Shown: piece by piece, positions 2,821 to 60,736 of the stretch | Layout: the number at the start of each line of letters is the position of its first letter | Position numbering within the stretch: the first letter of the stretch is position 1 | DNA from: a virus | IMG/VR virus record: IMGVR_UViG_3300047494_000097 | Coordinates: 1-60,736 of that record | Length of the DNA stretch: 60,736 nt | Direction: 5' to 3' (one strand) | Position numbers and translations under genes: made by a program | Notes under the pieces: generated by a model | What the model was told of the DNA's origin: nothing | Seen by the model: the letters and a program-made list of their open reading frames with translations, nothing else | Database searches by the model: none

Positions 2821-4769
2821 AACCCACCACTGGCCGGCATCGGCTCCATGATCTTCAAGTTCGGCGCGGTGAAGAGGCCGGTCGAAACAGCCGAGGAGCG
2901 GCTACCAGCCGGCAAGCCGCGGATGTCTATGTTGACGTTGGCCGATCCCTTGACCGTCAATGACGGGTCAGGCGTGGGCGAGGCCGCGCCGCCGCCGACG
3001 GTGACCGGCGCACCCTGCGGCGCGGTGAGCGCCTGGTTGACGCCTGCCGCGACCTGCGCGGGATCGATCTCGCGGCCGGTCTCGCGGCGCGCCATTGCCC
3101 GGATCATCGCGGTGGCGGTCGAGGCGTCGTGCAGGTTGAGCGGATCCATCGGACTGACACCGAGGCGGGCAGCGACCTGCGCGGCATAGCGGCCGGTGTC
3201 GTTGCCGTCGCTCGCCGGCGCCCAGCGGCCGATGATGCCGGCGACGGTGTTCAGGCCCTGCTTGTCCTGGTAGGCGAGGAGCTGGCGCTCGGCCGCGGCG
3301 ACGCCGGCCGCCATGTCCTGATATTTGCCGAAGCGGCCGTCGCTGCCGATCGCACCTTGGCCGGAGCGATACTCGAGGTTGAGCGGGTTGTTGTTGCGGA
3401 TGCCTCTCGGATCTCCGGCCGACCGGCCAGGTGCGGGCGAGCTGTCACCCCAGAGCCATTGCGTGTGCTGCTTGACCCAGTCACCGATTCCGTTGCCCGG
3501 TCCGCCCGGTGCGTTTGGACCGTAGTTCTGCCCGTATTCGGGAATGCCGCTGTAGTCTTCAACCCCTTGATGAGGAACGCCAAGCTTGTTCAAGGCATAG
3601 GCGGTGACGACGATTCCGGCGCCGGCAAGTGCCGCGATCGCGGCAGGGCCAAGCAGGCCCAGCGCGCCCATCGCCGCCGCCAAGGTCGCAAACGGCGCCA
3701 GCATTGAGGCGAGCCACGTGCCGGCGAAGAAACCGGCGACGTCGATCGCGGCCGCCTTCCAGCCGCCGAGTGAATCGACGACGCTCTTGATCTCCTGACC
3801 GACCTTCTGGACACCCTCCCAGACCTGGTCCCACTTGATGTCCTTCAGCGCGTCGGCGAGGGCCTTGAACGCTTCGTGGACTTTCTGGCCGATAAAAGCG
3901 CGGTTCTGCTCGATCCAAACGACCATGTCGTGAACCAGCGGCTCGAGTACAGGCGCGATCTCGGCGCCGATGGTGTTGGCCAGGCCGCCGAGCGCGCCCT
4001 TCATGTCAACCAGGGTCTCTTGCAGCTTGTTGCCGTCGGCGATCTGCTTGTCGGTCAGCGTGCCCCAGGCCGCTGCCATCTTGTTCCACTCGGCAATGCC
4101 GGCCGAACCCTTGCGGAGCCACGGCAGCATTTCCTCGCCGGCGGCGCCGAGCGCTCCGATCGCCACGCGGGCCTGAAGCGCTGGGTTCTTCAGATTCGAG
4201 ATGTAATCGGCGATCTGCGGGAGGACGTCGCTGTATTTGCGGGCCGAGCCGTCGGCCTCGTGCCAGGCAATCCGCATCGATCCCATGAGCGAGACGAACT
4301 CGGGCGCCCGGCCGCCGACGGCATCGGTGAGATTGTCGTTGAGTGCCTTGATGCCCGAGGCCGAGGCTTCGGCCGACACGCCAGCCAGGGCCATCGAGCC
4401 CTGGAGCTTCTGCATGTTCTGCGTCGTGGTGCCGACGCGGATCGAGGCGTTGTTCAGCTTCTGCGCAAACGACGCGAAATCGGTCCCCAGCTTAGCAATG
4501 CCGGCCAGCGAGGCGGCCGAGATCAACGTGCCATAGGGGCCGAGCATCCGACCGATGCTGCGAAAGGCGTCGAAGCTGCTCTTCGCGATCCAGGTGAAGC
4601 TGTCGCGGACTTTGCTCAGGCCGGTCAGGTCGGCGAACTTGGACAGCGATTTCTGCACGCGCAACACGGGCGCCTGCGCCGCGGCGATGCGCTTGTTGAT
4701 GGCGTCAATTTTTTTCGATGCGTCATCAACAACGGTGACGCCGATCGAATAGGAGCCCTTATTTGCCAC
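2817..4769 (-). CDS. Tail tape measure protein with embedded muramidase-like domain
   Basis: The 650-residue product has an N-terminal helical region, a central hydrophobic segment (around residues 335-395, Ala/Leu/Gly-rich) and Ala-rich stretches typical of tape measures. Around residues 455-580 it carries a domain beginning RGIRNNNPLNLEYRSGQG and continuing with GLNTVAGIIGRWAP and a GRYAAQVAARLGV segment. This matches the virion-associated lysozyme-like pattern often annotated as structural protein P5. It would set tail length and locally open peptidoglycan during DNA entry. It starts inside the 3' end of the chaperone frameshift product, the standard position for a tape measure. Confidence 0.85.
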   Translation of the reverse strand: MANKGSYSIGVTVVDDASKKIDAINKRIAAAQAPVLRVQKSLSKFADLTGLSKVRDSFTWIAKSSFDAFRSIGRMLGPYGTLISAASLAGIAKLGTDFASFAQKLNNASIRVGTTTQNMQKLQGSMALAGVSAEASASGIKALNDNLTDAVGGRAPEFVSLMGSMRIAWHEADGSARKYSDVLPQIADYISNLKNPALQARVAIGALGAAGEEMLPWLRKGSAGIAEWNKMAAAWGTLTDKQIADGNKLQETLVDMKGALGGLANTIGAEIAPVLEPLVHDMVVWIEQNRAFIGQKVHEAFKALADALKDIKWDQVWEGVQKVGQEIKSVVDSLGGWKAAAIDVAGFFAGTWLASMLAPFATLAAAMGALGLLGPAAIAALAGAGIVVTAYALNKLGVPHQGVEDYSGIPEYGQNYGPNAPGGPGNGIGDWVKQHTQWLWGDSSPAPGRSAGDPRGIRNNNPLNLEYRSGQGAIGSDGRFGKYQDMAAGVAAAERQLLAYQDKQGLNTVAGIIGRWAPASDGNDTGRYAAQVAARLGVSPMDPLNLHDASTATAMIRAMARRETGREIDPAQVAAGVNQALTAPQGAPVTVGGGAASPTPDPSLTVKGSANVNIDIRGLPAGSRSSAVSTGLFTAPNLKIMEPMPASGGF

Positions 4770-5207
4770 GGCGCTGTCTCTGTTTCAGCTCCAGCTCGAT
4801 CATCTTGTTGGCCTCCTGCGCATAGAAGACCGCATCGGTGCCGGTCAGCGCCAATGCGTCCTGCAGGCCACCCTGATAAAATCGACCGATTTGCGCCGTC
4901 AGCTCTCGATAGTTGGAAGGCCACGAGACAAAAAATTGTTGAGGAATGCCCAGGCCGCATTGTGCGTGCTGACGCGGATCTTCTGGATCACCGGAAGCGG
5001 GATGCCCGAGACGCGCGCGATGATGACGCACTCGCGGTTGTGGATGCTCTCCATGTTCGGGCCGTTGCGCATCTGGCCGTCGCCCTGGATGACCTCGCCG
5101 ATCGTCGGCTCGCGCAACGTCATCATCGAATAAAGTTTGTTCTGAAACTCGATCGGCGGGTTGATCTCGAATGTGCCCGTGGCATCCGTCTCTTGATGGT
5201 CGCTCAT
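4759..5207 (-). CDS. Tail assembly chaperone, -1 frameshift fusion product
   Basis: Two overlapping frames in the tape-measure-proximal position encode this product: the zero-frame protein (4899-5207) and a downstream frame ending at 4759. A canonical slippery heptamer T TTT TTG lies at 4935-4929 on the minus strand, in the zero frame. A -1 slip there joins the frames into a protein of about 149 residues, the G/GT-like arrangement of tail chaperones. The added C-terminus (GRFYQGG, ALTGTDAVFYAQEANKMIE) is well formed, supporting its translation. The fusion is inferred from the heptamer and frame layout. Confidence 0.75.
4899..5207 (-). CDS. Tail assembly chaperone, zero-frame product (Mu gp41-like)
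   Basis: This 102-residue protein is made without frameshifting. An opening beta-rich segment (NPPIEFQNKLYSMMTLREPT) followed by a helical region resembles the Mu gp41 / phage tail assembly protein E pattern. The start overlaps the tail tube stop by ATGA. In this family the short product is made in excess and coats the tape measure before tube polymerisation. Confidence 0.75.
   Translation of the reverse strand: MSDHQETDATGTFEINPPIEFQNKLYSMMTLREPTIGEVIQGDGQMRNGPNMESIHNRECVIIARVSGIPLPVIQKIRVSTHNAAWAFLNNFLSRGLPTIES
4929..4935 (-). promoter_or_regulatory. Programmed -1 ribosomal frameshift site (T TTT TTG)
   Basis: On the minus strand the heptamer TTTTTTG is read as AAT TTT TTG in the zero frame. 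Slipping back one base allows TTT to re-pair and continues into the frame ending at 4759. The position, about 35 nt before the zero-frame stop and just before the tape measure, is the usual one for tail chaperone frameshifts. Confidence 0.75.
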
Positions 5208-5584
5208 CCGATGGTTTGCTCCGTCACCTGCGGGCCTTCGAAGCGCACCGTGAAGGTGCCCTCCTGGGTCCTGACCTCACCGACCTCGGTGTTCCACATG
5301 CCTGCGCCATAAATCTGCTTGCCGTTGGCCTGGAGAACGATCACCTCGACGTTGGTCATCTGATTGAAATTCTGCACCGGATAGTCGGGCCGATCGCGCA
5401 GCGTGGCACCGATGAAGCCCTGCGTCGGCATCTCGCTGAAGCCCTCGACGGCAGTCTGCCCCTTCAACGTCTCGCGGACGACCGTGACGGCGTTCCAGAC
5501 GAGATCGCTGACAACGTCCCAGGCGTCGCCATTGATCGTCATGGACGCAATGCCGGCTAGACGCCGGCTCGTGGTTCCCGACAT
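5204..5584 (-). CDS. Tail tube protein (Mu gpM family)
   Basis: This 126-residue protein has the size and layout of Mu-like tail tube subunits. An early GIASMTINGDAWDV segment is followed by a central loop (GFSEMPTQGFIGATLRDRP) and the terminal EGTFTVRFEGPQV strand. It polymerises into the inner tube under the sheath. It follows the sheath gene after a 31-base gap and overlaps the chaperone start by ATGA, the order found in Mu. Confidence 0.9.
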   Translation of the reverse strand: MSGTTSRRLAGIASMTINGDAWDVVSDLVWNAVTVVRETLKGQTAVEGFSEMPTQGFIGATLRDRPDYPVQNFNQMTNVEVIVLQANGKQIYGAGMWNTEVGEVRTQEGTFTVRFEGPQVTEQTIG

Positions 5585-5615
5585 TTCGGATGCTCCGTTT
5601 TAGGAAGATCGCCGA

Positions 5616-7103
5616 TTAAGGCTTCGAAAACGCGACCAACATGGCGACGACGCGGAGCTGATTGGCGACCTGGATTGGCAAATACAGCTCCACCAAGCCA
5701 TTGCCCGCGTTCACCGCGTCGGCCTGGTCGGAGAACTGCTGGGCGTTCTGGCACAGCCCTTGAAGACAGAGGTTGCCGTAGGTGGCGATCACCGAGAGCA
5801 GGATCACCTGAGCCGTCGTCATAGCACTGCCAGGCGGAATGCGGGTGCCGTCGGCGACGAGGATTTTCTGAAAAAACTGCGACTGGAGCTGCGTTCGAAT
5901 GGCGCGGATGACCGCCATCAGCGTGTACATCGTCTCCACGTCGAGATAGCTGTTGTCCGGCGCACCGGCAGCGTTGAGCTGATAGGTGGTGACCAGGCGC
6001 TGGGTCTGGACGGTGCCCTGCTGCGACACGTTAATCGTCGACATGCCATCATAGAGCAGCGAATTCTGCTCGCCGACGGTGAAGCGATCGGCGATCGGCG
6101 GCGCCAGGACGTTCAGGGTCAGACCGTTGAGCGGAACTGCCGGGTTGGCGCGCAGCGAGACCGCGGCGGCGGCGCATAGATCCGCCGCGATCGCAAAGGA
6201 CGCGGTCGGGGTATTCTGGATCGGCAGGATCGTCATGTGCTGATCGTTGCGCGAGGTGCCGAGCGTGACGGCCTGCGCGAATGTGCCGTTGAAGCCTGCG
6301 AAGCAATGGCCGAACGTCTCGACCGACCACGACCAGGTGCCGCTGGTGTCATTGAAATAGTTGCCGATGTCGGTCAGCGACGTGGGATCGTTGAAGGCAG
6401 TCGCCATGAAATCATAGCCGCCGCCAGCGGCAAGATTGCTCAGCGCGGTGGCCAGTGCGGTCGAAGGGTTGGTGGCGCCGTTGGCCATCTTTACGACCGT
6501 GGCTGCCAGCCCCGCCGGGCTCGCCTCATAGGGTGGTCCGACATAGGCCAGCCGAATGTCGATGTCGTTGCCGGCCGCGCCCTTGTTTTTCGCGGTGACA
6601 GTCAACACGCCGGCGTTGGCCGTCACGTTGACCGGTAGATTGGGCAACAATCCAGCCGCGGTTACCAAATTCTGACAAACGGTGGTCGGGGTGTCGCCGA
6701 CATTCACGGCGCAGAACACCTGCACGCCGGCGATGTAGAGCGGGAATGTGCCAACAGCGGTGGCGGCTCCCGTCAGCGTCACGGTGCCCGTTGCCGCCAC
6801 GGACGCTGGATCATCGGCAAGCGGCAAAATCCAAAGGTCGCCATAGAGATCGATCTTGCGATAGCGATAGGCCATGATGGCAGCCTGGCTGCCCTCGCCC
6901 ATCGCCAGCTGAATGTCGGTCGTCGATGAGAAATGATAGGGCACGCCGGTGGCGGCGGTGCCGCTCGCCAGTTTCTGCGCGACGATGATCGTGCGCTGAA
7001 GCGGCTGACCGCTATTGGCGTTCTGATTGTTCAGCTCGGCGTAGACGCCGGGAACCCGGTTTGAGACCGGGTATTGTTTGAACGTGATGGTAGAGCCACT
7101 CAT
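5616..7103 (-). CDS. Contractile tail sheath protein (Mu gpL family)
   Basis: At 495 residues the protein has the length of Mu gpL. The N-terminus (SNRVPGVYAELNNQNANSG) carries the conserved VPGVY motif of Mu-like sheaths. Repeated beta segments with GAAGNDIDI follow, and the C-terminus (PIQVANQLRVVAMLVAF) is typical. It forms the contractile outer tail layer, so the particle is a myovirus. The start overlaps the DUF2635 gene by ATGA. Confidence 0.92.
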   Translation of the reverse strand: MSGSTITFKQYPVSNRVPGVYAELNNQNANSGQPLQRTIIVAQKLASGTAATGVPYHFSSTTDIQLAMGEGSQAAIMAYRYRKIDLYGDLWILPLADDPASVAATGTVTLTGAATAVGTFPLYIAGVQVFCAVNVGDTPTTVCQNLVTAAGLLPNLPVNVTANAGVLTVTAKNKGAAGNDIDIRLAYVGPPYEASPAGLAATVVKMANGATNPSTALATALSNLAAGGGYDFMATAFNDPTSLTDIGNYFNDTSGTWSWSVETFGHCFAGFNGTFAQAVTLGTSRNDQHMTILPIQNTPTASFAIAADLCAAAAVSLRANPAVPLNGLTLNVLAPPIADRFTVGEQNSLLYDGMSTINVSQQGTVQTQRLVTTYQLNAAGAPDNSYLDVETMYTLMAVIRAIRTQLQSQFFQKILVADGTRIPPGSAMTTAQVILLSVIATYGNLCLQGLCQNAQQFSDQADAVNAGNGLVELYLPIQVANQLRVVAMLVAFSKP

Positions 7104-7369
7104 GTCGGCGTCCCTTCATGGGCGTGCGGAGCCGGCGCGGTGCTCGGGGGCGTGGGTGTGGGCGTTGCCGTCACACCAGGATTTTCGAGAGCGATTGCGG
7201 GCGCCGGCGTGCTGACAGCGGGGCTCGAAATCTCGACATCGCCCGCGGTAATTCTGCGGAGCCACCAAGGGTCGCGATCGTCGACCGTCATGCCAGCTGC
7301 GCTGAGATAACGACCAGGCGGCCCTGGCATCGGGACCATCAGTCCCGGCTTGGTAGGTTTGATAAACAT
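7100..7369 (-). CDS. DUF2635-type tail protein (Mu gp38-like)
   Basis: This 89-residue protein begins MFIKPTKPGLMVPMPGPPGR, then has a DPWWLRRITAGDVEI segment. That is the short pattern of DUF2635 proteins encoded between the tail terminator and sheath in Mu-like phages. The second half is Pro/Thr/Ala-rich low complexity. The molecular role is unknown. Position and motif support the assignment. Confidence 0.8.
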   Translation of the reverse strand: MFIKPTKPGLMVPMPGPPGRYLSAAGMTVDDRDPWWLRRITAGDVEISSPAVSTPAPAIALENPGVTATPTPTPPSTAPAPHAHEGTPT

Positions 7370-7382
7370 GAGGGATGCCCTC

Positions 7383-7940
7383 TCAGAACTGGATGTCGAA
7401 GCCGGTCTTCGGGGTTTCTGAGTTGGGCGGCTGGGTGTCCGCCTGGATCTCGGTGAGCGGTGTGCCCGTGGGCATCCAGCCTTCGAGATCGCTCAGTGTG
7501 ATGTCGAGCGCGAACTCGAACTGGTAGCGAAGCCGCGCGCGGTCCATGTCGATGACGTCGCCGCTCACAAATCGAAAGCCGCGTGTCTCAACGTTGGCGC
7601 TCGGGTTGGTCGGATCCCAATCTGGCCGCCAGTTCAGGATCGCTTTGCAGATGTCGTAGAAAAAAGTCGTGACACTGTCGGTCGGTGCCTGCCCGCGGCG
7701 ATCGAGGCTGTTGTCGAGATCGATGACGATGCCGGTTTTGACCGTGACCATCTGCCACAGGCCGGTCATGCTTTCGTTGTCGCTGGCCTCCATGCCGAGC
7801 GGCAGCACGTATGCCGCCGGGCGCTCCATCCAGACCTGGTCGGCGATGGCGTTCGCATATTGCGCGGCACCGGCGACGCGACTTTCAAACACCGGCGCCG
7901 CGGCGCGGAGCTGGGTGATGACCTGGCTGATGAGTTGCAA
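7383..7940 (-). CDS. Tail terminator-type protein (Mu gp37-like, DUF1834)
   Basis: This 185-residue protein has the WMERPAAYVLPLG segment, a central TVKTGIVIDLDN strand and a C-terminal RARLRYQFEFALDI strand typical of Mu gp37-like proteins, which cap the tail and join it to the head connector. It lies between the gp10-like protein and DUF2635, the expected order. The family is recognised by pattern only. Confidence 0.75.
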   Translation of the reverse strand: MQLISQVITQLRAAAPVFESRVAGAAQYANAIADQVWMERPAAYVLPLGMEASDNESMTGLWQMVTVKTGIVIDLDNSLDRRGQAPTDSVTTFFYDICKAILNWRPDWDPTNPSANVETRGFRFVSGDVIDMDRARLRYQFEFALDITLSDLEGWMPTGTPLTEIQADTQPPNSETPKTGFDIQF

Positions 7941-17353: not shown

Positions 17354-17635
17354 ATGGAAATCGAGTTCGACCCGGCGAAATCCGAAAGTAATCTCCGCAA
17401 GCATGGGATTTCTCTGGCCGACGCCGAACTGATGAACATCAACGAAGCCACCGTCGAACCGGATACCCGGTTCGACTACGGCGAACAGCGCTTTCGCGCC
17501 TGGGGCTTGATCGCCGGGGTTTTGCACATTCTCGCCTTCACGATCCGCGGATCCAAAATCCGCGCAATCTCGCTTCGCAAATCAAATGCAATGGAAAACC
17601 GCCGCTATGAAAAAAATCAAGAAAAATCAGAATGA
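17354..17635 (+). CDS. brnT: BrnT-type toxin (type II toxin-antitoxin)
   Basis: This 93-residue ribonuclease-fold toxin has the family opening IEFDPAKSESNLRKHGISLA (residues 3-22). It continues with DAELMN, a central DTRFDYGEQRFRAWGLI strand pair, and the IRAISLRKSNAMENRRYE end with the catalytic-region Arg/Lys residues. BrnT cleaves RNA and is blocked by BrnA, encoded just downstream with overlap. It is divergent from the packaging genes and was probably acquired as a cargo cassette. Confidence 0.88.
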   Translation: MEIEFDPAKSESNLRKHGISLADAELMNINEATVEPDTRFDYGEQRFRAWGLIAGVLHILAFTIRGSKIRAISLRKSNAMENRRYEKNQEKSE

Positions 17636-17930
17636 TTACGAAGAAAAGCCAATCGACGATGATGAAAACCCTGAGTTGACCGAAGAAGATTTCGCGCGTG
17701 GGCGGCCGTTCAAAGAAGTGTTTCCTGAGCAATACGCAGCCTGGGAAGCAAACGGCCGTCAGCCCATCAAAGCGAAGCCGATCGGCAGGCCGCCTGTCGA
17801 AAAGCCAAAAGTGCACATTGGTTTTCGGCTTTCCCAGGACGTAGTCGAGCGCATTCGATTGTCAGGGGCTGGATACAACGCGCGGGTCGAGAAAGTATTG
17901 CGCGATGCGCTGGATGCCGGACAGTTCTAA
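17607..17930 (+). CDS. brnA: BrnA-type antitoxin
   Basis: This is an antitoxin of about 107 residues (ATG at 17607; the frame is open from 17586). An acidic N-terminal half (PELTEEDFARGRPFKEV) wraps the toxin. A C-terminal ribbon-helix-helix-type segment (KVHIGFRLSQDVVERIRLSG) would bind the operator upstream of brnT. The gene overlaps the 3' end of brnT, as is usual for this pair. Confidence 0.85.
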   Translation: MKKIKKNQNDYEEKPIDDDENPELTEEDFARGRPFKEVFPEQYAAWEANGRQPIKAKPIGRPPVEKPKVHIGFRLSQDVVERIRLSGAGYNARVEKVLRDALDAGQF

Positions 17931-17937
17931 CGATCTG

Positions 17938-18330
17938 TCAGGCCGCCGGCGGCGCCAGGTTCTCCATCGGGACATTCAGAACGGCGGCCAATTTGCGAAG
18001 CGCTGCGACGCTTCCGGGCTTTTTGCCCTTTTCGATCTCGTTCAAATAGGCTGGGCTGATTTCCGCCGCTGCCGCCAGCGCTGTTTGGCTGAGGCCAGCG
18101 CGCTTGCGCCAAATGGTGACCGGTGAGACGCCGTCGAGGATCTGCAGGGCCTCCTCGCCGGTGTAGGATTGCCGGATCACCTCATCCAGCCCAATCGCCT
18201 CAATTTGCGCATCAAGCCGCGCCACGGACGCCGGATAGGCGGCATCTCGAAGAAATGCCTCCCAGTCAGCGCGGAGGAAGGTGATGGTCGTTGCGTCCTC
18301 GGCAACCGGTTTCGGAAACGGTGTGTTCAT
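17938..18330 (-). CDS. Xre-family antitoxin of a HigBA/RelE-type module
   Basis: From the ATG at 18330 the protein has 130 residues. An N-terminal region with WEAFLRDAAYPASVARLDAQ precedes a C-terminal Cro/CI helix-turn-helix (LSQTALAAAAEISPAYLNEI, then EKGKKPGSVAALRKLAAVL). The start overlaps the toxin stop by ATGA. It should neutralise the toxin and repress the operon, perhaps at the inverted repeat at 18587-18601. Confidence 0.85.
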   Translation of the reverse strand: MNTPFPKPVAEDATTITFLRADWEAFLRDAAYPASVARLDAQIEAIGLDEVIRQSYTGEEALQILDGVSPVTIWRKRAGLSQTALAAAAEISPAYLNEIEKGKKPGSVAALRKLAAVLNVPMENLAPPAA

Positions 18331-18578
18331 CGGTAAATATCCTTTCGCGGCCCAACCTCTGTGACGATCATTGCCCCGGCGGTGAGGCGATAAATCGCCC
18401 GGTAATTCCCTTTGCGCATGCGCCACACTCCCGGGGTTCCGACCATCTGAGTGACGAAGCTCAAACGCTGCGGATGGGCATCGGCAACTTGCTTAAGAGC
18501 CGCGACGATACGTTTGCCATCGGCCTTCGGCAGCTTGGCGATTTGCGAGAGAGCGGCGGGGAGGATGACTAACTTCAT
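18327..18578 (-). CDS. RelE/ParE-superfamily toxin (HigB-like)
   Basis: The 83-residue toxin has the compact RelE pattern: LPAALSQIAKLPKADGKRI, a central VTQMVGTPGVWRMRKGNYRA segment with the conserved WR.R.G.YR motif, and a terminal EVGPRKDIY. It likely cleaves mRNA or interferes with gyrase. Toxin-first order is typical of HigBA. It lies tail to tail with brnA. Confidence 0.85.
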   Translation of the reverse strand: MKLVILPAALSQIAKLPKADGKRIVAALKQVADAHPQRLSFVTQMVGTPGVWRMRKGNYRAIYRLTAGAMIVTEVGPRKDIYR

Positions 18579-18586
18579 GCTGCATA

Positions 18587-18601
18587 TTCGCTGATCGCGA
18601 A
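18587..18601. promoter_or_regulatory. Inverted repeat TTCGC-N5-GCGAA, candidate toxin-antitoxin operator
   Basis: A perfect 5+5 inverted repeat with a 5-base centre lies 9 bases upstream of the RelE-type toxin start, within an AT-rich promoter-like stretch. The position fits autoregulation by the Xre antitoxin. Confidence 0.45.
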
Positions 18602-18624
18602 CAATATTGCAAGCGAAAACTTAG

Positions 18625-18902
18625 CTAATAGAGAATATTTATCGGGTGTCGAATCTGGACATGCAGGGCTTTCACCTGCCGCCGCATTGCCCCCGGCTGG
18701 TCGCGGCTTCCGGCATAGGGATACGTCTGCCCGAAATGCACCGACAACGCGGCCAGGGCCGGGACGAGACGCCGGGCTTCCACCAGCTGCGAGCGTTCCG
18801 CTCTCTGCTCGGAATTTCACCGGTGCCCCCGGCAGGCAGCATCAGCTGCGCGTAGCGACGCCGGTTCGTATCGTTCTCGCCAGCATATAGGGTGTCGCTC
18901 AT
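18625..18902 (-). pseudogene. Small unknown gene, apparently frameshifted
   Basis: From the ATG at 18902 the frame reads MSDTLYAGENDTNRRRYAQL then MLPAGGTGEIP, and degenerates into Arg/Trp/Pro-rich text until a stop at 18672. In the -1 frame from about 18803 a natural-looking continuation appears (QLVEARRLVPALAALSVHFG, then QTYPYAGSRDQPGAMRRQV) ending at 18625. A single-base indel therefore seems to split one protein of about 92 residues. No slippery heptamer is visible. It overlaps the upstream gene by ATGA. Confidence 0.55.
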
Positions 18903-19084
18903 CGCGAACAACCCGCAACCCGCGCGTCGGCCTCTTGGCGCGTGTCGGCAACCTCGATCACGCCGAAGTCGTCCTCGATTGCGACAAAGGTGTCGCCGAA
19001 GCGCGAAACGTGCTCGACCAGGCGCAGGGTGCCGCTCTTGGCGGCGATGGCGATGGCGACGTCGGTGGCGGAAAGAAGACGCAT
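18899..19084 (-). CDS. Small unknown protein (61 aa)
   Basis: Start ATG at 19084 with a GGGGGATC ribosome-binding site. It encodes LLSATDVAIAIAAKSGTLRL followed by a strand-rich part (RFGDTFVAIEDDFGVIEVAD) and ends AGCSR. It forms a two-gene unit with the frameshifted gene at 18902 (ATGA overlap). No family recognised. Confidence 0.55.
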   Translation of the reverse strand: MRLLSATDVAIAIAAKSGTLRLVEHVSRFGDTFVAIEDDFGVIEVADTRQEADARVAGCSR

Positions 19085-19280
19085 GGGAGATCCCCCAAAG
19101 GCCGCGGCGGGATTGCCGGGCTGCTGCTCTGCTTTCCGCCCCAGCCCTTGAGGACTGGCAGCGCCGGCGGTGCCCCGCGCCGGTGGGAGGAAGCGGTCCA
19201 GGCCGCGTCCATGTCGAGTGTTTTGCCAGAAATGCCCGCGCACGACAAGAAGAAAATACGCTGAAACAGCATATTTTCGG

Positions 19281-19309
19281 TTTACAATTACGTCGTATTA
19301 GCGCATAAA
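19281..19309 (+). promoter_or_regulatory. Promoter TTTACA-N17-CATAAA ahead of the hydrophobic peptide gene
   Basis: The -35 hexamer TTTACA (19281-19286) and -10 hexamer CATAAA (19304-19309) are separated by exactly 17 bases in a local AT-rich patch of otherwise GC-rich DNA. Predicted transcription starts at about 19316, the first base of a perfect 9-bp GC-rich hairpin. Confidence 0.5.
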
Positions 19310-19315
19310 ACTGAG

Positions 19316-19455
19316 GCCGGGCGGATTGGCCGCCCGGCACCCAGAGGAGCTAGAGATGGTTATCTCAGTGACTCTGCTGTGGAGAAGATGGAGCCTTACA
19401 GTTTCCATCATCTTCTAAACCGCGGCTTCCGGGGTGGGGCACAAACCCACCCCGG
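19316..19455 (+). ncRNA. Highly structured short transcript region with stacked hairpins
   Basis: Four inverted repeats follow each other. GCCGGGCGG-ATTGG-CCGCCCGGC spans 19316-19338. GAGAT-GGTT-ATCTC spans 19353-19366 and covers the peptide start. An imperfect arm pair AGAAGATGGA/TCCATCATCTTCT lies within the peptide gene. CCGGGGTGGG-N7-CCCACCCCGG spans 19429-19455. A 5'-terminal hairpin, a sequestered start and a 3' hairpin on a transcript of about 140 nt is the layout of type I toxin mRNAs. No U-tract follows the last hairpin. Confidence 0.45.
19356..19418 (+). CDS. 20-residue hydrophobic peptide, candidate type I toxin
   Basis: The peptide MVISVTLLWRRWSLTVSIIF is preceded by an ideal ribosome-binding site (AGAGGAG, six bases before ATG) and a good promoter. 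Hydrophobic residues flank a central WRRW, resembling membrane-acting peptides of type I toxin-antitoxin loci. It sits in the toxin-antitoxin island. No antisense RNA promoter could be assigned confidently. A leader peptide controlling the downstream Xre gene is the main alternative. Confidence 0.45.
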   Translation: MVISVTLLWRRWSLTVSIIF

Positions 19456-19494
19456 TTGCAGGGTTCACATAGCTGAAACCGGGGCTTACCGCAA

Positions 19495-19746
19495 ATGACT
19501 TCGGACGAGCTGACAGCATTTCGCAAAGGTCTCGGCCTGACCCAGACCGAAATGGCCGGACGGGTCGGCCTCAGTCTGCGGGCCTATCAGGAGATCGAGG
19601 GCGGCGCCTCTAAGGTTCGGCCGCTCCATGTGGCGGCAGCCGAGCGGGCCGCCCTGACGCTGGCCGTCGAGCGCGGCGAGCCGATGTTGGCGCCGGTGAG
19701 CGTGCGGCGCGAGGCCCTCGAGCTGGCCAGGCTGATTGCCGGCTGA
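19495..19746 (+). CDS. Xre/Cro-type DNA-binding protein
   Basis: This 83-residue helix-turn-helix protein has the pattern DELTAFRKGLGLTQTEMAGR then VGLSLRAYQEIEGGASKVRP, typical of small Xre regulators of alphaproteobacterial prophages. It ends in a helical ERAALTLAVERG segment. It may regulate the MazE/MazF-like genes that follow or the peptide locus upstream. Confidence 0.75.
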   Translation: MTSDELTAFRKGLGLTQTEMAGRVGLSLRAYQEIEGGASKVRPLHVAAAERAALTLAVERGEPMLAPVSVRREALELARLIAG

Positions 19747-19800
19747 GGTGGCGATGAACTGAACTGGCATCCGGCGGACACATGTGTTACCTGTAACACC

Positions 19801-20031
19801 ATGCAACCCCGTCCCACCTCTCGCGATCGCATCGCCCGGCATCGCGCCTCCCAGAAAGAGCGCGGATTGCGCGCGGTCGTGCTGTGGCTGCCGGACCTCA
19901 ACGATCCCCATTACCGCGCTCGGCTCGCCGAGGAATGCCGCCGCCTCTCTCGAATGACCGCCGAGGAGGCCGCCATTGTTGACGACTTCGCCCAAATTGC
20001 CGGGCCGGGGCCAGATGACGGGTGGCGATAG
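19801..20031 (+). CDS. MazE-like antitoxin (DUF3018 type)
   Basis: The 76-residue antitoxin has the DUF3018 pattern: RDRIARHRASQKERGLRAVV, LWLPDLNDP, then RLAEECRRLS and a terminal DDGW motif. It ends inside the start of the MazF-like gene (10-base overlap), the usual order and coupling for this module. Confidence 0.82.
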   Translation: MQPRPTSRDRIARHRASQKERGLRAVVLWLPDLNDPHYRARLAEECRRLSRMTAEEAAIVDDFAQIAGPGPDDGWR

Positions 20032-20384
20032 AGGCTGACGCCATCCGGCGGGGCTGTGTGATCCTGGTCAGGATACGAGGCGACAAAGCCCGGCCTGCCG
20101 TGGTGGCTCGGTCCGACCTTCTCGCCACCTTGCCTTATGCGACGGTGCTACCGATCAGCAGCGACCTCCGCACCAATGCCAGCCTGCGCGTCGACATAGC
20201 CGCCACGCCGGAGAACGGGTTGCGCGTCGCGTCGCAAGTCATGACGGACTGGCCGCAGACAGTTCGGCTTGATGAAGTGGGCCAGGTGATCGGCCAGGTC
20301 GACGCGGAGACTATGCGCCTGGTCACGCGACAGATGGCCGTGGTGCTGGGGATCGGCGCCGGCAGGGGTAGACCTCGCCGATGA
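20022..20384 (+). CDS. MazF/PemK-type endoribonuclease toxin
   Basis: This 120-residue protein, GTG start, has the MazF signatures IRRGCVILVRIRGDKARPAV, a PYATVLPISSDLR segment with the catalytic-region Ser/Thr, and ASQVMTDWPQTVRLDEVGQV. MazF toxins cut mRNA at short motifs. It is the third type II toxin in a 3-kb stretch. Confidence 0.88.
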   Translation: MAIEADAIRRGCVILVRIRGDKARPAVVARSDLLATLPYATVLPISSDLRTNASLRVDIAATPENGLRVASQVMTDWPQTVRLDEVGQVIGQVDAETMRLVTRQMAVVLGIGAGRGRPRR

Positions 20385-20530: not shown

Positions 20531-20813
20531 CGTTTTTGCGCGCCCCCCAGCGCCGGCAAGCCGGATCCTGGGCGCGGACTTCGGTCCCGCCGCCGCCCGT
20601 CCATATGGCGCGCATCAGCTCGCACTTGAGATACACCTTCGCCATCTGGTTCCGTGCCAAGTGCCGGCAGCTCTTGCACGTCTCGCCCGCCGGCCCAGAT
20701 CCAGGCGGGGCAGCGTGGCCCGTTTTCTTCGATGGCTTTCGGCCGGCAAGCGCGGACGGCGGCAGCACCATCAGGTCAAATGAGGGGCTGCCATTATCAG
20801 CGCGGATCGGCAT
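20526..20813 (-). CDS. Small phage zinc-binding protein
   Basis: Up to 95 residues (an internal ATG at 20771 is an alternative start). The C-terminal half has the Cys pattern ETCKSCRHLARNQMAKVYLK C, IWTGGGGTEVRAQDPAC, RW, a recurring early-gene phage protein likely binding one zinc ion. The function is unknown. It is the last gene of the leftward early operon. Confidence 0.7.
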   Translation of the reverse strand: MPIRADNGSPSFDLMVLPPSALAGRKPSKKTGHAAPPGSGPAGETCKSCRHLARNQMAKVYLKCELMRAIWTGGGGTEVRAQDPACRRWGARKNE

Positions 20814-21099
20814 TTTTCACGACCTTGTAGGCGTCGATCGGGATCATGCCGCCGTCGACGCTGATCAGGCAGTCCTGCATCGGACTCCAGGTCCAGAAGA
20901 AGCCCATCGCGTCTGCCTTCGTTTGGCAGGCGGTCTTGTCGAGCATCATTCCAACCCAAATGGCGATACCAAAAAACGCGCCGAGCGCGAGGAAAATGAA
21001 CACGACGACGCCGAGCCAATCGTTCCAAACATAGCAAAACCGATCCCACACCCGCTTGTGGAACGGCGGCGGCTCGTAATCAGGCCACGCGAACGGCAT
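20797..21099 (-). CDS. Single-pass membrane protein
   Basis: From the ATG at 21099 it encodes 100 residues. A Trp/Pro-rich N-terminus (MPFAWPDYEPPPFHKRVWDR) is followed by a hydrophobic segment (LGVVVFIFLALGAFFGIAIW) and a short exposed domain with two Cys and DGGMIPIDAYKVV. Function unknown; possibly an envelope-acting early protein. It overlaps the previous gene by 20 bases. Confidence 0.65.
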   Translation of the reverse strand: MPFAWPDYEPPPFHKRVWDRFCYVWNDWLGVVVFIFLALGAFFGIAIWVGMMLDKTACQTKADAMGFFWTWSPMQDCLISVDGGMIPIDAYKVVKNADPR

Positions 21100-21591: not shown

Positions 21592-21867
21592 CTACGCGCT
21601 GCCGCCGCGTTCGTGCTCAGGCGCCGGCCTCGCATCCATGCGATCAGGTGTGATGGCGTAGGCGGCCTTGATGAGCGTCGATGCGATCCTCGTCATCATA
21701 TGCATGAAGTCTTGCCTCGCCCCAGGATAGTCTTCCACGATGCGCATGCTGATACACCCGAGCAGCTGCGCATCTTTCATGCTGTCGATGGGTGCGAGGT
21801 AAGCGTTCCACATAGCACCCTCAACGCGCATGGCGAGCCGAACAGGAGCGGTCGCGCGCTGGTTCAT
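21592..21867 (-). CDS. Unknown early protein (91 aa)
   Basis: The product contains LAMRVEGAMWNAYLAPIDSM, then LLGCISMRIVEDYPGARQDF, with a helical C-terminus. It looks like a compact folded protein. A GGA/GAG-rich ribosome site precedes the ATG. No family recognised. Confidence 0.6.
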   Translation of the reverse strand: MNQRATAPVRLAMRVEGAMWNAYLAPIDSMKDAQLLGCISMRIVEDYPGARQDFMHMMTRIASTLIKAAYAITPDRMDARPAPEHERGGSA

Positions 21868-21873
21868 CTCATC

Positions 21874-21966
21874 TCATTCCTTCATGGCGCCCGCGCCCTG
21901 AGCCGGATTGTCGCTGTGGCCGGAGCGGAGGCGGTAGGGCCAAGAGATAAGTTCGGTCACCAGCAA
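21874..21966 (-). CDS. Possible 30-residue small protein
   Basis: A TTG start (21966) lies four bases after GAGGG. The frame reads LVTELISWPYRLRSGHSDNP then AQGAGAMKE and stops seven bases before the next gene. It fills an otherwise empty 120-base gap in a tightly packed operon. Its reality depends on the TTG start. Confidence 0.35.
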   Translation of the reverse strand: MLVTELISWPYRLRSGHSDNPAQGAGAMKE

Positions 21967-21987
21967 GTATCCCTCAAGGTTCGGGGT

Positions 21988-22191
21988 TTATGGAGTTACT
22001 GCGCACGCAAGGGCGCGAAGGTTCTCGATCGTCAAGCCGTTCATACCCTCGCCGTCGTCGCGCTGGTTGACGGGATCAGACTTGATCGACCACACATCCT
22101 TGCCGTCATAGCTGCGCTGGTAGTGAAGCGTAACCGTGCGGCCATAGGCATCTGTGCCGATCGGGAAAGACGCTGCTTTTGGCTTCAGCAT
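21988..22191 (-). CDS. Unknown early protein (67 aa)
   Basis: ATG at 22191 is preceded by GGAGG, which favours it over the longer frame to 22239. The product (KAASFPIGTDAYGRTVTLHY, then SYDGKDVWSIKSDPVN) looks like a small beta-sheet protein. Function unknown. Confidence 0.6.
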   Translation of the reverse strand: MLKPKAASFPIGTDAYGRTVTLHYQRSYDGKDVWSIKSDPVNQRDDGEGMNGLTIENLRALACAVTP

Positions 22192-22214
22192 TAGCGGCCT
22201 CCGGTTTGGGGGTT

Positions 22215-22382
22215 TTAGGGTGCCTGCCGCTCGACCCACTGCTCGACCGCAGAAAGGGACTGCTCACGGGCGGCGTTCGAGATGTCGTTTGCCCTCGGGC
22301 CACTGGCATCCTTGTCGAACAGGTACAGGCACAAGGCGACATTGGGGAAGATGCGCTCCAATAAGCGCATCGTCTCCTGCAT
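22215..22382 (-). CDS. Unknown early protein (55 aa)
   Basis: An AAGGAT ribosome site precedes the ATG at 22382. The protein reads MQETMRLLERIFPNVALCLY, LFDKDASGPRANDISNAARE, then QSLSAVEQWVERQAP: two amphipathic helices with a loop. It fills the gap between neighbouring operon genes. No family recognised. Confidence 0.6.
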   Translation of the reverse strand: MQETMRLLERIFPNVALCLYLFDKDASGPRANDISNAAREQSLSAVEQWVERQAP

Positions 22383-22439
22383 ATCCTTTCTGTGCTTCTG
22401 TTGGGATCGGGTCCATTCCTGGGTCGATGCGCGGGGGCA

Positions 22440-22685
22440 TTAGGAGGTCAATTCCTTGACGGTCCACATCACCGATTCTTCCAGCGCAGTGAGGCCGAGC
22501 GAACGATAGCGGCCCGGCTTCACGCGCTCAAAAAGGGCTTCCAGTTCCGTGGCCTTGCTCTTGATGTCGTCATGCAACGCCTTCTCGTCGTCGGTCAGCG
22601 CGCGGTATTTCGGCCGAAAACGAGTGACCTCGATCGCATCTGCGCTCTGCCGCGCGTCCGGCATTCCTTCGTAAACGTGAGCCAT
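22440..22685 (-). CDS. Acb2/Tad1-like hairpin protein, candidate anti-CBASS/anti-Thoeris sponge
   Basis: This 81-residue protein has, from residue 23, FRPKYRALTDDEKALHDDIK then SKATELEALFERVKPGRYRS and LGLTALEESVMWTVKEL. This matches the pattern YR.L...E..L...IK....EL..L....R....T.L....M...+ of the Acb2/Tad1 hairpin domain (DUF7681). Those proteins bind cyclic nucleotide alarm signals and blunt CBASS or Thoeris defence. Position among small early genes fits. The assignment is by motif recall and needs structure or profile support. Confidence 0.55.
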   Translation of the reverse strand: MAHVYEGMPDARQSADAIEVTRFRPKYRALTDDEKALHDDIKSKATELEALFERVKPGRYRSLGLTALEESVMWTVKELTS

Positions 22686-22686
22686 A

Positions 22687-22968
22687 TCAATGTCCTTTCA
22701 GGGCGTCGGGGTTTTTGGTAGTGCCGGAAGTGGCGGCAAGCTGAGCCAGAACGTCCAGGTTCCCATGCTTTAGATTGGCCGCCACGACCTTCATTGCCAT
22801 GGCTGGCGTCACCGTGCGCTGATCCTGTAGCGCGACGATCTTGCCCACCAGGTTCGCCGCAATCGCCAGCAATTCGAGCGAACTGACCTTGCTGGCGTGC
22901 TTGTTCACCAAGGCAGCCAATTCTTGATAGGCAACCTCGTGCTCTGCCTTCGCGATGTGAACGCTCAT
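22687..22968 (-). CDS. Unknown early helical protein (93 aa)
   Basis: All-helical composition: HIAKAEHEVAYQELAALVNK, then SSLELLAIAANLVGKIVALQ, then VTPAMAMKVVAANLKHGNLD. It is one base upstream of the Acb2-like gene, so both are probably translated together. Function unknown. Confidence 0.6.
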   Translation of the reverse strand: MSVHIAKAEHEVAYQELAALVNKHASKVSSLELLAIAANLVGKIVALQDQRTVTPAMAMKVVAANLKHGNLDVLAQLAATSGTTKNPDALKGH

Positions 22969-23006
22969 GTGCCGACCTTCGGGCCTTCGCGCCCATCCAT
23001 CTCATA

Positions 23007-23294
23007 CTAAGTGAATTTGCCATCCTCGCCAACTGGAAGGTGCTCGCGGCACTTGCAGCAGTACGTGGCGCTGTAAAACGCCGGATCGCGCGCATACGTC
23101 TCAGCAATGCCGCGCCCCATGGTGGTGATCGTGCCGCAGGTCAGATGGCGGTAAGCGTCTCGGTAGGGGCGAACAAAGCCCTTTGCGCGCTCGTCGGCAC
23201 TCAGAACGACATAGCCTTTCTGCTGGCCGTTCGCCTGGATTTCGCGGTGATCGTCGGTGACCGGTGAGCCATCGGTTAGCGTTACGTCTTCCAT
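23007..23294 (-). CDS. Conserved phage zinc protein (95 aa)
   Basis: Contains GYVVLSADERAKGFVRPYRD, then HLTCGTITTMGRGIAETYAR and YSATYCCKCREHLPVGE. Paired Cys (TCGT and CCKC) suggest a zinc site. This pattern recurs in phages and prophages of Proteobacteria. No function is known. Confidence 0.7.
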   Translation of the reverse strand: MEDVTLTDGSPVTDDHREIQANGQQKGYVVLSADERAKGFVRPYRDAYRHLTCGTITTMGRGIAETYARDPAFYSATYCCKCREHLPVGEDGKFT

Positions 23295-37319: not shown

Positions 37320-38678
37320 GTGGAAAAAATTGAAAAATTGACACCCGATCAAATCGCCCGGTTTCCTGAGTTCGTCGAGAAATGGACGAAGATCGGTCTA
37401 TGCACGGAACCCGCGGATCGTCTGCGCGCCAAGGCCGCGATTCGGCGCATGTATGAGATTGCGGGGCTTGCGCCCCCGAAACAGATTGTTTGGTGCGGGT
37501 CGCCGTTCAGTATGGCTCTCACGCGGGCCATTGTTTTGAAAATGCCGAAAGTCAGGGACAGCGTCAGGGACAGCGTCTGGGACAGCGTCGGGGCCAGCGT
37601 CGGGGCCAGCGTCTGGGCCAGCGTCAGGGACAGCGTCAGGGACAGCGTCGGGGCCAGCGTCTGGGCCAGCGTCTGGGACAGCGTCGGGGACAGCGTCAGG
37701 GACAGCGTCGGGGCCAGCGTCTGGGACAGCGTCGGGGCCAGCGTCTGGGACAGCGTCGAGGACAGCGTCTGGGCCAGCGTCAGGGACAGCGTCGAGGACA
37801 GCGTCGAGGACAGCGTCAGGGACAGCGTCGGGGCCAGCGTCTGGGCCAGCGTCAGGGACAGCGTCAGGGACAGCGTCAGGGACAGCGTCTGGGCCAGCGT
37901 CGGGGCCAGCGTCTGGGACAGCGTCGGGGCCAGCGTCTGGGACAGCGTCTGGGCCAGCGTCGGGGCCAGCGTCGGGGTCAGCGTCGGGGACAGCGTCTAC
38001 GGCCAACACGACGCGCACTGGCTCGCATTCTACCGTTATTTCTGCATCGTCACCGGCCTTGTCAAACAGACCGAACGTCTTGAAGGCTTGTGGGAATTTG
38101 CCCGCTCGGCCGGGTGGGCCATTCCGTGCCGAGATGTCTGCTTTATCTCCGAGCGCCATAATGGATTGTCTCGCGACCAGCGCGGGCGTTTGCACAATGA
38201 AACCGGCCCGGCGGTCGAATATCCGGATGGCTGGAAAATTTACGCGGTTCACGGCGTGCGCGTGCCGGCCGCGATTATTGAGGCGGCTGACACAATTACT
38301 GTCGAGACCATTCACGCCGAACGAAATTCTGAAATTCAGCGTGTGATGATTGAGCGCTTCGGCTGGGATCGCTACGCGTCTGAGTGCGGCGCCGAGCTGA
38401 TTGACCACGATGACCGCTGGGGCACGCTGTTTCGGCGCAAGACGAGCGCTGGCGAGCCTATCGTTTATCTTGAGGTTATCAACCGAAGTGCTGAGCCTGA
38501 CGGCACATTCCGCCACTATATTTTGCCGGTGCATCCAGAATGCCGCCCGCTTCCGGATCCGGAAGACCAGCGCGGCGATCTGGGTGACCGCCAACCGCTT
38601 ACCGCTCTTAATGCCGTTGCCAGCACATTTGGAATGACGGGCGCAGAGTATAAGCGCCTGGTGGCGGCGGAATCGTGA
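37320..38678 (+). CDS. DUF6745-like protein with 37 tandem tetrapeptides
   Basis: The 452-residue protein, GTG start, has an N-terminal domain (LTPDQIARFPEFVEKWTKIG then MYEIAGLAPPKQIVWCGSPF) and a C-terminal domain (LHNETGPAVEYPDGWKIYAV, HGVRVP) matching the DUF6745 pattern. Between them residues 79-226 consist of 37 copies of [RWGE][DA]SV. The copies differ only at the first two positions. The repeat probably forms a regular solenoid or fibre. No function is known. Confidence 0.7.
   Translation: MEKIEKLTPDQIARFPEFVEKWTKIGLCTEPADRLRAKAAIRRMYEIAGLAPPKQIVWCGSPFSMALTRAIVLKMPKVRDSVRDSVWDSVGASVGASVWASVRDSVRDSVGASVWASVWDSVGDSVRDSVGASVWDSVGASVWDSVEDSVWASVRDSVEDSVEDSVRDSVGASVWASVRDSVRDSVRDSVWASVGASVWDSVGASVWDSVWASVGASVGVSVGDSVYGQHDAHWLAFYRYFCIVTGLVKQTERLEGLWEFARSAGWAIPCRDVCFISERHNGLSRDQRGRLHNETGPAVEYPDGWKIYAVHGVRVPAAIIEAADTITVETIHAERNSEIQRVMIERFGWDRYASECGAELIDHDDRWGTLFRRKTSAGEPIVYLEVINRSAEPDGTFRHYILPVHPECRPLPDPEDQRGDLGDRQPLTALNAVASTFGMTGAEYKRLVAAES
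37554..37997 (+). repeat. 37 x 12-bp coding tandem repeat (NGGGNCAGCGTC type)
   Basis: The consensus unit encodes X-D/A-S-V. The AGCGTC half is invariant, while the first codon alternates AGG, TGG, GGG or GAG and the second GAC or GCC. The 12-bp period keeps all frames open on both strands, which produces long false ORFs. Copy number can change without frameshift. Confidence 0.95.
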
Positions 38679-60170: not shown

Positions 60171-60706
60171 CAGGAACCGGGGACGGGCTCGCCGCTGGAG
60201 CTGCTGCCGGACTGCACGCCCGAGACGCGCAGCTCGCGCATCGCCACCTGGTCGGATGTGCCCTGGCCGGCGGTGATGTCGCCGGTGGCAGTGATCGCCC
60301 CGGTGACCGCCAGCGTCGGGGTGATAATGTTCAGCGCGGTGGCGGCGGTGATCTCGAGCGTGCCGCCCTGCTTGAGATGAATGTGATTGCCAGCACCGTC
60401 ATCGAGCGCCCATTCGCCAGGTTTCAGGCCTTTGGTCCGGGTGCCGGGATCATTCGACCCCATGACGATGCCGCGGTTGCGGTCGCCGCCGGTGAACATC
60501 ATCACCACCTGCGTGCCGACGGGCGGGCAGGAGCTGAAGCCCCAGTGGTAGCAGACTTCCTGGTTGTTCAGCATCTCGATCGCGCTGATCTCGACCTGCA
60601 TCCGCTGCGCCGCGCCGCTGTCATCGACCAGGCGCACGGTGCCGACGGCCATCGCGTTGCGGATGCGCGCGACCGCCCGCGACACCTGATGGGTCCAGGC
60701 ATTCAC
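60170..60706 (-). CDS. Mu gp45-like baseplate spike protein
   Basis: The 178-residue protein, GTG start, contains WGFSSCPPVGTQVVMMFTGG, DRNRGIVMGSNDPGTR and LKPGEWALDDGAGNHIHLKQ, the Mu gp45 (V) pattern, then a beta-helix-like end (ITPTLAVTGAITATGDITA). It forms the membrane-piercing spike below the hub. It is coupled to the gp44-like gene across the contig joint. Confidence 0.9.
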   Translation of the reverse strand: MNAWTHQVSRAVARIRNAMAVGTVRLVDDSGAAQRMQVEISAIEMLNNQEVCYHWGFSSCPPVGTQVVMMFTGGDRNRGIVMGSNDPGTRTKGLKPGEWALDDGAGNHIHLKQGGTLEITAATALNIITPTLAVTGAITATGDITAGQGTSDQVAMRELRVSGVQSGSSSSGEPVPGS

Positions 60707-60736
60707 GGCTGAGACGGACCGTTCAGGTGTCGCGGG
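60599..60736. repeat. Terminal direct repeat, right copy, plus 13-base fold-back end
   Basis: 60599-60724 repeats 1-126. The final 13 bases (60724-60736) are the reverse complement of 60676-60688, inside the repeat, and do not match the continuation at 127 onward. This fold-back is most likely a chimeric read end, not biology. Confidence 0.8.

Follow-up and report, generated by a model that had tools for sequence, protein, structure and literature searches.

An Acb2-like hairpin protein, probably a sponge for CBASS cyclic nucleotides, encoded by a putative temperate phage

We analysed a viral contig of 60.7 kb (60,736 nt; record IMGVR_UViG_3300047494_000097), hereafter the window. The record encodes TerL, a capsid protein of the Phage_capsid family, a sheath protein, a Baseplate_J protein, a YqaJ recombinase and an integrase, and from these genes we infer a temperate, contractile-tailed phage. 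The two ends of the record (1–138 and 60599–60736) repeat each other with 131 of 138 bases identical, which suggests a circular or terminally redundant genome that was assembled with a slightly divergent overlap. At 37542–38678 (+), the window also holds a 378-aa ORF that opens with short repeats of the type S-V-x-D/A-S-V-W/G-A/D.

On the minus strand, exactly at 22440–22685 where the initial annotation had placed an 81-aa protein, lies an ORF with an ATG start whose 81-aa product is MAHVYEGMPDARQSADAIEVTRFRPKYRALTDDEKALHDDIKSKATELEALFERVKPGRYRSLGLTALEESVMWTVKELTS; we call this the acb2-like gene. A ribosome-binding-site-like (Shine-Dalgarno-like) AAAGGA motif (22693–22698, −) is found 7 nt from the ATG. 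This motif overlaps the 3′ end of the preceding gene, which encodes 93 aa (22687–22968, −), and the TGA stop of that gene adjoins the acb2-like start. Because of this overlap and adjacency, the nucleotide sequence indicates that the two genes are probably translated together.

Small ORFs on the same strand surround the acb2-like gene (21592–23294, plus 20797–21099), with an AAA_25 ATPase gene on one side of the block and that of the large terminase on the other. The initial annotation had read these small genes as a likely anti-defence cluster. The block itself is present, but its proposed role gained no backing, as none of the neighbours matched a known inhibitor or a Pfam, PHROG or NCBIfam family of known function; the NCBIfam search returned nothing meaningful. 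Megablast with a 12-kb piece of the window found no match among phage records. Two upstream genes did recur with the acb2-like gene elsewhere: the 93-aa gene, with homologues in loci L002 and L022, and a 95-aa gene (23007–23294, −), with homologues in L002, L022 and L049. The order in L022 was that of the window (95-aa gene homologue, 93-aa gene homologue, then sponge gene), and homologues of one or both lay near the sponge gene in L002 and L049, suggesting from gene order that the three form a small cassette.

Among the relatives described below, a conserved gene of ~90 aa (cluster c1), without a Pfam match, began where the acb2-like gene ends or shortly beyond it in ten loci (L010, at 3641–3913, L015, L016, L018, L019, L021, L022, L024, L029 and L050), and an eleventh copy lay upstream of the acb2-like gene in L035. 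We regard c1 as a candidate: it may encode a partner of the acb2-like protein or be a second counter-defence gene. Recombination genes (YqaJ, ERF and NinB) lay close to the acb2-like gene in some relatives. Separately, three toxin-antitoxin-like units occupy 17354–20384 of the window, between the terminase genes and the small-gene block: a BrnT toxin (17354–17635, +), a ParE-like toxin (18327–18578, −) with an HTH partner (17938–18330, −), and an HTH gene (19495–19746, +) with a PemK/MazF toxin (20022–20384, +).

Relatives of the acb2-like protein were found on 40 viral contigs in the viral contig scan and on 10 bacterial contigs in the bacterial genome scan. Most were 60–86% identical to the window protein over the full length. 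All ten bacterial carriers were Alphaproteobacteria by record title, including Phenylobacterium, Bradyrhizobium, Acetobacter and Azospirillum. Median pN/pS relative to the window copy was 0.24 (hairpin 0.20, first 26 residues 0.33), and these figures are rough, with synonymous sites near saturation. The gene is thus real and conserved, and under purifying selection. Its surroundings were highly variable: over the 50 loci, the immediate upstream neighbours fell into 43 clusters and the downstream neighbours into 35. Because the neighbours are so diverse, the comparison of loci indicates that the gene moves independently of its flanks. A conserved gene sequence with flanks that change in nearly every relative is as expected of an accessory counter-defence gene. 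One relative (L041, 6001–6333) carried a 29-residue insertion in the inter-helix loop and K at the conserved T66 position, and represents a natural loop variant.

The protein belongs to the Acb2/Tad1 hairpin family by sequence. PF24729 (Acb2_Tad1_hairpin) matched residues 26–77 (22455–22610, −) with 57.5 bits (gathering cut-off 27, E = 1.6e-15), so the spaced hairpin pattern proposed in the initial annotation is real. On the same profile the characterised Pseudomonas phage Acb2 and T4 Vs.4 scored 66.1 and 71.4 bits, respectively. PF24729 matched no other protein of the 60.7-kb record and nothing in 14 control genomes. PHROG 1454 was matched at E = 3.6e-8 and PHROG 717, which holds the Vs.4 homologues reported by Jenson et al. 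(PMC10097602), weakly at E = 0.006. A profile of 37 sequences from the acb2-like clade (alignment A1) aligned by hhalign to one of 41 sequences from the Pseudomonas Acb2 clade (alignment A2) with a probability of 96.9 (E = 1.4e-10) over residues 26–79. In searches of PDB sequences, phmmer with the single acb2-like protein gave chance matches only, and the clade profile gave no significant match, reaching Acb2 at E ~1. A further profile, A3, matched 8h2j and 7uq2 strongly, but both sequences are inside A3; its independent PDB matches were weak (9ptq, E = 0.008; Tad1, 0.03–0.05).

AlphaFold2, run with alignment A1, predicted two antiparallel helices with high confidence in the core (pLDDT 96–98), and the N-terminus was of low confidence. 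Helix 1 (residues 32–52; 22530–22592, −) holds K42, L48 and F52, and helix 2 (residues 59–80; 22446–22511, −) holds R59, T66, M73 and K77. The model consists of this helical hairpin after a short N-terminal segment, with no other folded domain. Thus the fold check that had been set beforehand as a refutation test of the annotation came out in its favour. In a Foldseek search of all PDB chains, the Acb2 structures 8h2x and 8h2j ranked first (probability 0.97–0.99), followed by 7uq2 (Vs.4) and then Tad1 chains, and Acb2/Tad1 hairpin proteins also ranked first among viral models. Because the Foldseek E-values against the PDB were weak (0.35) and the VIA-align Z of 6–7 for Acb2-type matches was similar to that for unrelated helical hairpins, the predicted fold corroborates the sequence result and alone would neither prove it nor discriminate between hairpin families. 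The model contained no strands of at least three residues and has ~30 residues before the first helix. The Tad1 N-terminal beta-sheet domain is absent from the model, and hence the protein appears to be Acb2-type and not Tad1.

We compared the ligand pocket with that of Vs.4, where Y8 and F82 stack against cGAMP and Y8, H11, K23 and R79 bind it, and where L29, F33, A66, A73 and A77 lie in the hexamer interface (PMC10097602). In that protein T68M lowers ligand affinity (PMC12657230), and the F82C and Y8A variants are non-functional in a Panoptes assay (PMC12657218). By alignment A3 the Vs.4 ligand residues Y8, F82, H11, K23, R79 and T68 correspond to Y27, T80, L30, K42, K77 and T66 of the acb2-like protein, and the interface residues to L48, F52, G64, S71 and T75. 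Y27 (22605–22607, −), the counterpart of the base-stacking tyrosine (Y11 in Pseudomonas Acb2), was present in 37/37 relatives and in Acb2 and Vs.4. K42 (22560–22562, −), equivalent to the cGAMP-contacting K23 (Acb2 K26), was likewise found in 37/37, and T66 (22488–22490, −) in 36/37 as well as in Acb2 and Vs.4. Position 77 (22455–22457, −) was K in all 37 relatives, a conservative change from the cGAMP contact R79 (Acb2 R85). Besides M1, the only invariant columns in a 13-sequence alignment that included Acb2 and Vs.4 were Y27, K42, T66 and M73.

The ligand set was more conserved than random hairpin columns (P ~0.017); the hexamer-interface counterparts were not unusually conserved (P = 0.82). 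On the second check set beforehand, for missing ligand-binding residues, most are kept, with Y27, K42 and T66 identical and K77 conservative, and it is the F82 and H11 positions that have changed. The proven Pseudomonas Acb2 is also changed at these two positions (A88, L14). The classical Acb2 C-terminal tail ending in Phe was missing from the acb2-like protein in the alignment. At the other end, an N-terminal extension (residues 1–26; 22608–22685, −), visible in the alignments and part of the low-confidence region of the model, adds ~16–20 residues relative to classical Acb2 and Vs.4. Its residues D10, R12, Q13, F23, R24 and P25 were invariant.

We also searched the host genomes for the relevant defences. 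A CD-NTase (SMODS) match above cut-off was found in four of the ten bacterial genomes with the acb2-like gene. PADLOC models confirmed a cyclase with an adjacent effector or accessory gene at three of these four loci (cyclase with TRIP13 and a TIR effector; cyclase with an HNH-SAVED effector; cyclase with a weakly matching E1-E2-like gene). The remaining locus, where only ORFs around the SMODS match were scanned, had a phospholipase effector beside the match, and ThsB genes occurred in the same region. ThsB genes were present in three of the ten genomes. In Bradyrhizobium sp. dw_78 (L138), which also carries the acb2-like gene, ThsB (765–1250) and a CBASS-type SMODS cyclase match with a CapV-like phospholipase (4781–7409) were found within 7 kb. 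A strong enrichment of CBASS in these hosts was first suggested by class-wide controls, in which 0/96 genomes were over the cut-off, but family-matched controls gave 11/61 and 6/60 (index genomes included). Because of this family-matched background, enrichment is suggestive at most. Moreover, a phage gene and a CBASS system that share a genome are no proof that one targets the other.

We conclude, with a probability of about 0.7, that the protein is an Acb2-type sponge for CBASS cyclic nucleotides. The sponge identity put forward in the initial annotation was thus supported in its Acb2-like, not its Tad1-like, form by the PF24729 match, the hairpin and the ligand residues; from homology, we infer its activity, including hexamer formation, ligand identity and protection against CBASS. 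Most likely, helical-hairpin monomers would assemble into a hexamer whose pockets between protomers would capture the cyclic oligonucleotides that the host's CBASS cyclases produce as messengers when the cell is infected. The Y27/K42/K77 pocket would take up cyclic dinucleotides, and cyclic trinucleotides might possibly be held too. With the messengers withheld, the effectors would stay inactive and the phage would escape abortive infection.

Beyond this reading, we regard as a tentative idea, with the odds clearly against it, that the relatives are an Acb2 subfamily in their own right, widely exchanged among alphaproteobacterial phages, in which the N-terminal extension (D-x-R-Q ... F-R-P) and the missing C-terminal aromatic remodel the pocket and give a ligand range not described for Acb2, such as a cADPR isomer or an unusual CBASS messenger. 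Also unlikely is the alternative that the protein is a nucleotide sponge for a signal other than a CBASS cyclic oligonucleotide, with a Thoeris-type cADPR isomer or some other messenger of defence as its natural ligand. Several observations point this way. The structure 9ptq, which contains 3′cADPR, was among the top structural matches (Z = 7.0), its sequence matches the mixed family profile, and it has a short hairpin loop like that of the acb2-like protein; furthermore, the family covers Acb2 and Tad1 with different signals (PMC12043709), ThsB genes were found in the hosts noted above, the Vs.4 C-terminal aromatic is lost, and the N-terminal extension is conserved. Against this, the residues that are kept are those contacting cGAMP in Vs.4, and the model lacks the beta-sheet domain of Tad1. 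Tad1 gcADPR pockets use that domain, and Acb2 and Tad1 bind different signals (PMC12043709). Because the domain is absent, the model makes the Tad1 route of gcADPR binding unlikely. Because 9ptq shows that Acb2-type hairpins can hold 3′cADPR, a cADPR-type ligand is possible, and anti-Thoeris activity is possible on that entry only.

It is more doubtful still that the hairpin was recruited to a non-defence role, for example in virion assembly or gene regulation. Helical hairpins are a common structural element, and in Sinorhizobium phage Aussie the homologue sits among head-tail genes, between those for the head-to-tail adaptor and the stopper. However, one would expect the gene for a structural part to stay in its context, whereas the neighbours differ in nearly every locus, and the ligand-pocket residues are the most constrained of the hairpin columns by the comparison given above. 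Lastly, a spurious ORF, that is, a chance frame in this GC-rich region with its many chance ORFs on both strands, can be dismissed because of the ~50 relatives and the median pN/pS of 0.24, together with the Pfam match.

An Acb2-type sponge for CBASS messengers thus remains our preferred reading. Whether CBASS and Thoeris can halt a phage depends on sponges, and the Panoptes defence is set off by Acb2 itself (PMC12657218, PMC12657230). The relatives form an Acb2 clade that is compact, mobile and highly conserved and that occurs in phages of Bradyrhizobium, Caulobacteraceae, Acetobacter and related bacteria; it extends the family beyond the hosts of characterised Acb2 proteins. Since it lacks the stacking phenylalanine found in Vs.4, the protein is also a natural variant that would make ligand specificity directly testable.

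Pseudomonas phage Acb2 (8h2j, 8h2x; 'p26'; sequence L057) binds 3′3′-cGAMP. It shares the Pfam domain with the acb2-like protein and a profile alignment over the whole hairpin, and its Y11, K26, R67, T74 and M81 correspond to Y27, K42, R59, T66 and M73. In the acb2-like protein, by contrast, the YR-L motif is preceded by ~16 extra residues, the inter-helix loop is much shorter, K77 stands in place of R85, and there is no Ala-x-Pro-x-x-Phe C-terminal tail. T4 Vs.4 (Acb2; 7uq2) has the same domain at ~21% identity, and its Y8, K23, T68, M75, W76, L29 and F33 have identical counterparts; the acb2-like protein differs in T80 for F82, L30 for H11, K77 for R79, the shorter loop and the N-terminal extension. 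'Acb2 homolog 43' in complex with 3′cADPR (9ptq) is a short-loop hairpin like the acb2-like protein and matches its C-terminal half, but is remote in sequence, with an alignment that stops short of the Y27 region. Tad1 (7uav, 8kbb and others) has the C-terminal helical hairpin in common with the acb2-like protein, whereas its N-terminal four-stranded sheet domain, which helps bind gcADPR, was not predicted here. Short-loop Acb2/Tad1-hairpin proteins of Sinorhizobium phage Aussie and other phages (L042–L044; annotated as hypothetical) are 34–42% identical over the aligned length and share the signature YR-L...K...SLA-T...E--MW-VK--T and D-x-R near the N-terminus; their N-terminal region is shorter and without the FRP motif. 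Compared with these systems, the acb2-like protein is a clear, fairly ordinary addition to a known family of viral counter-defence sponges.
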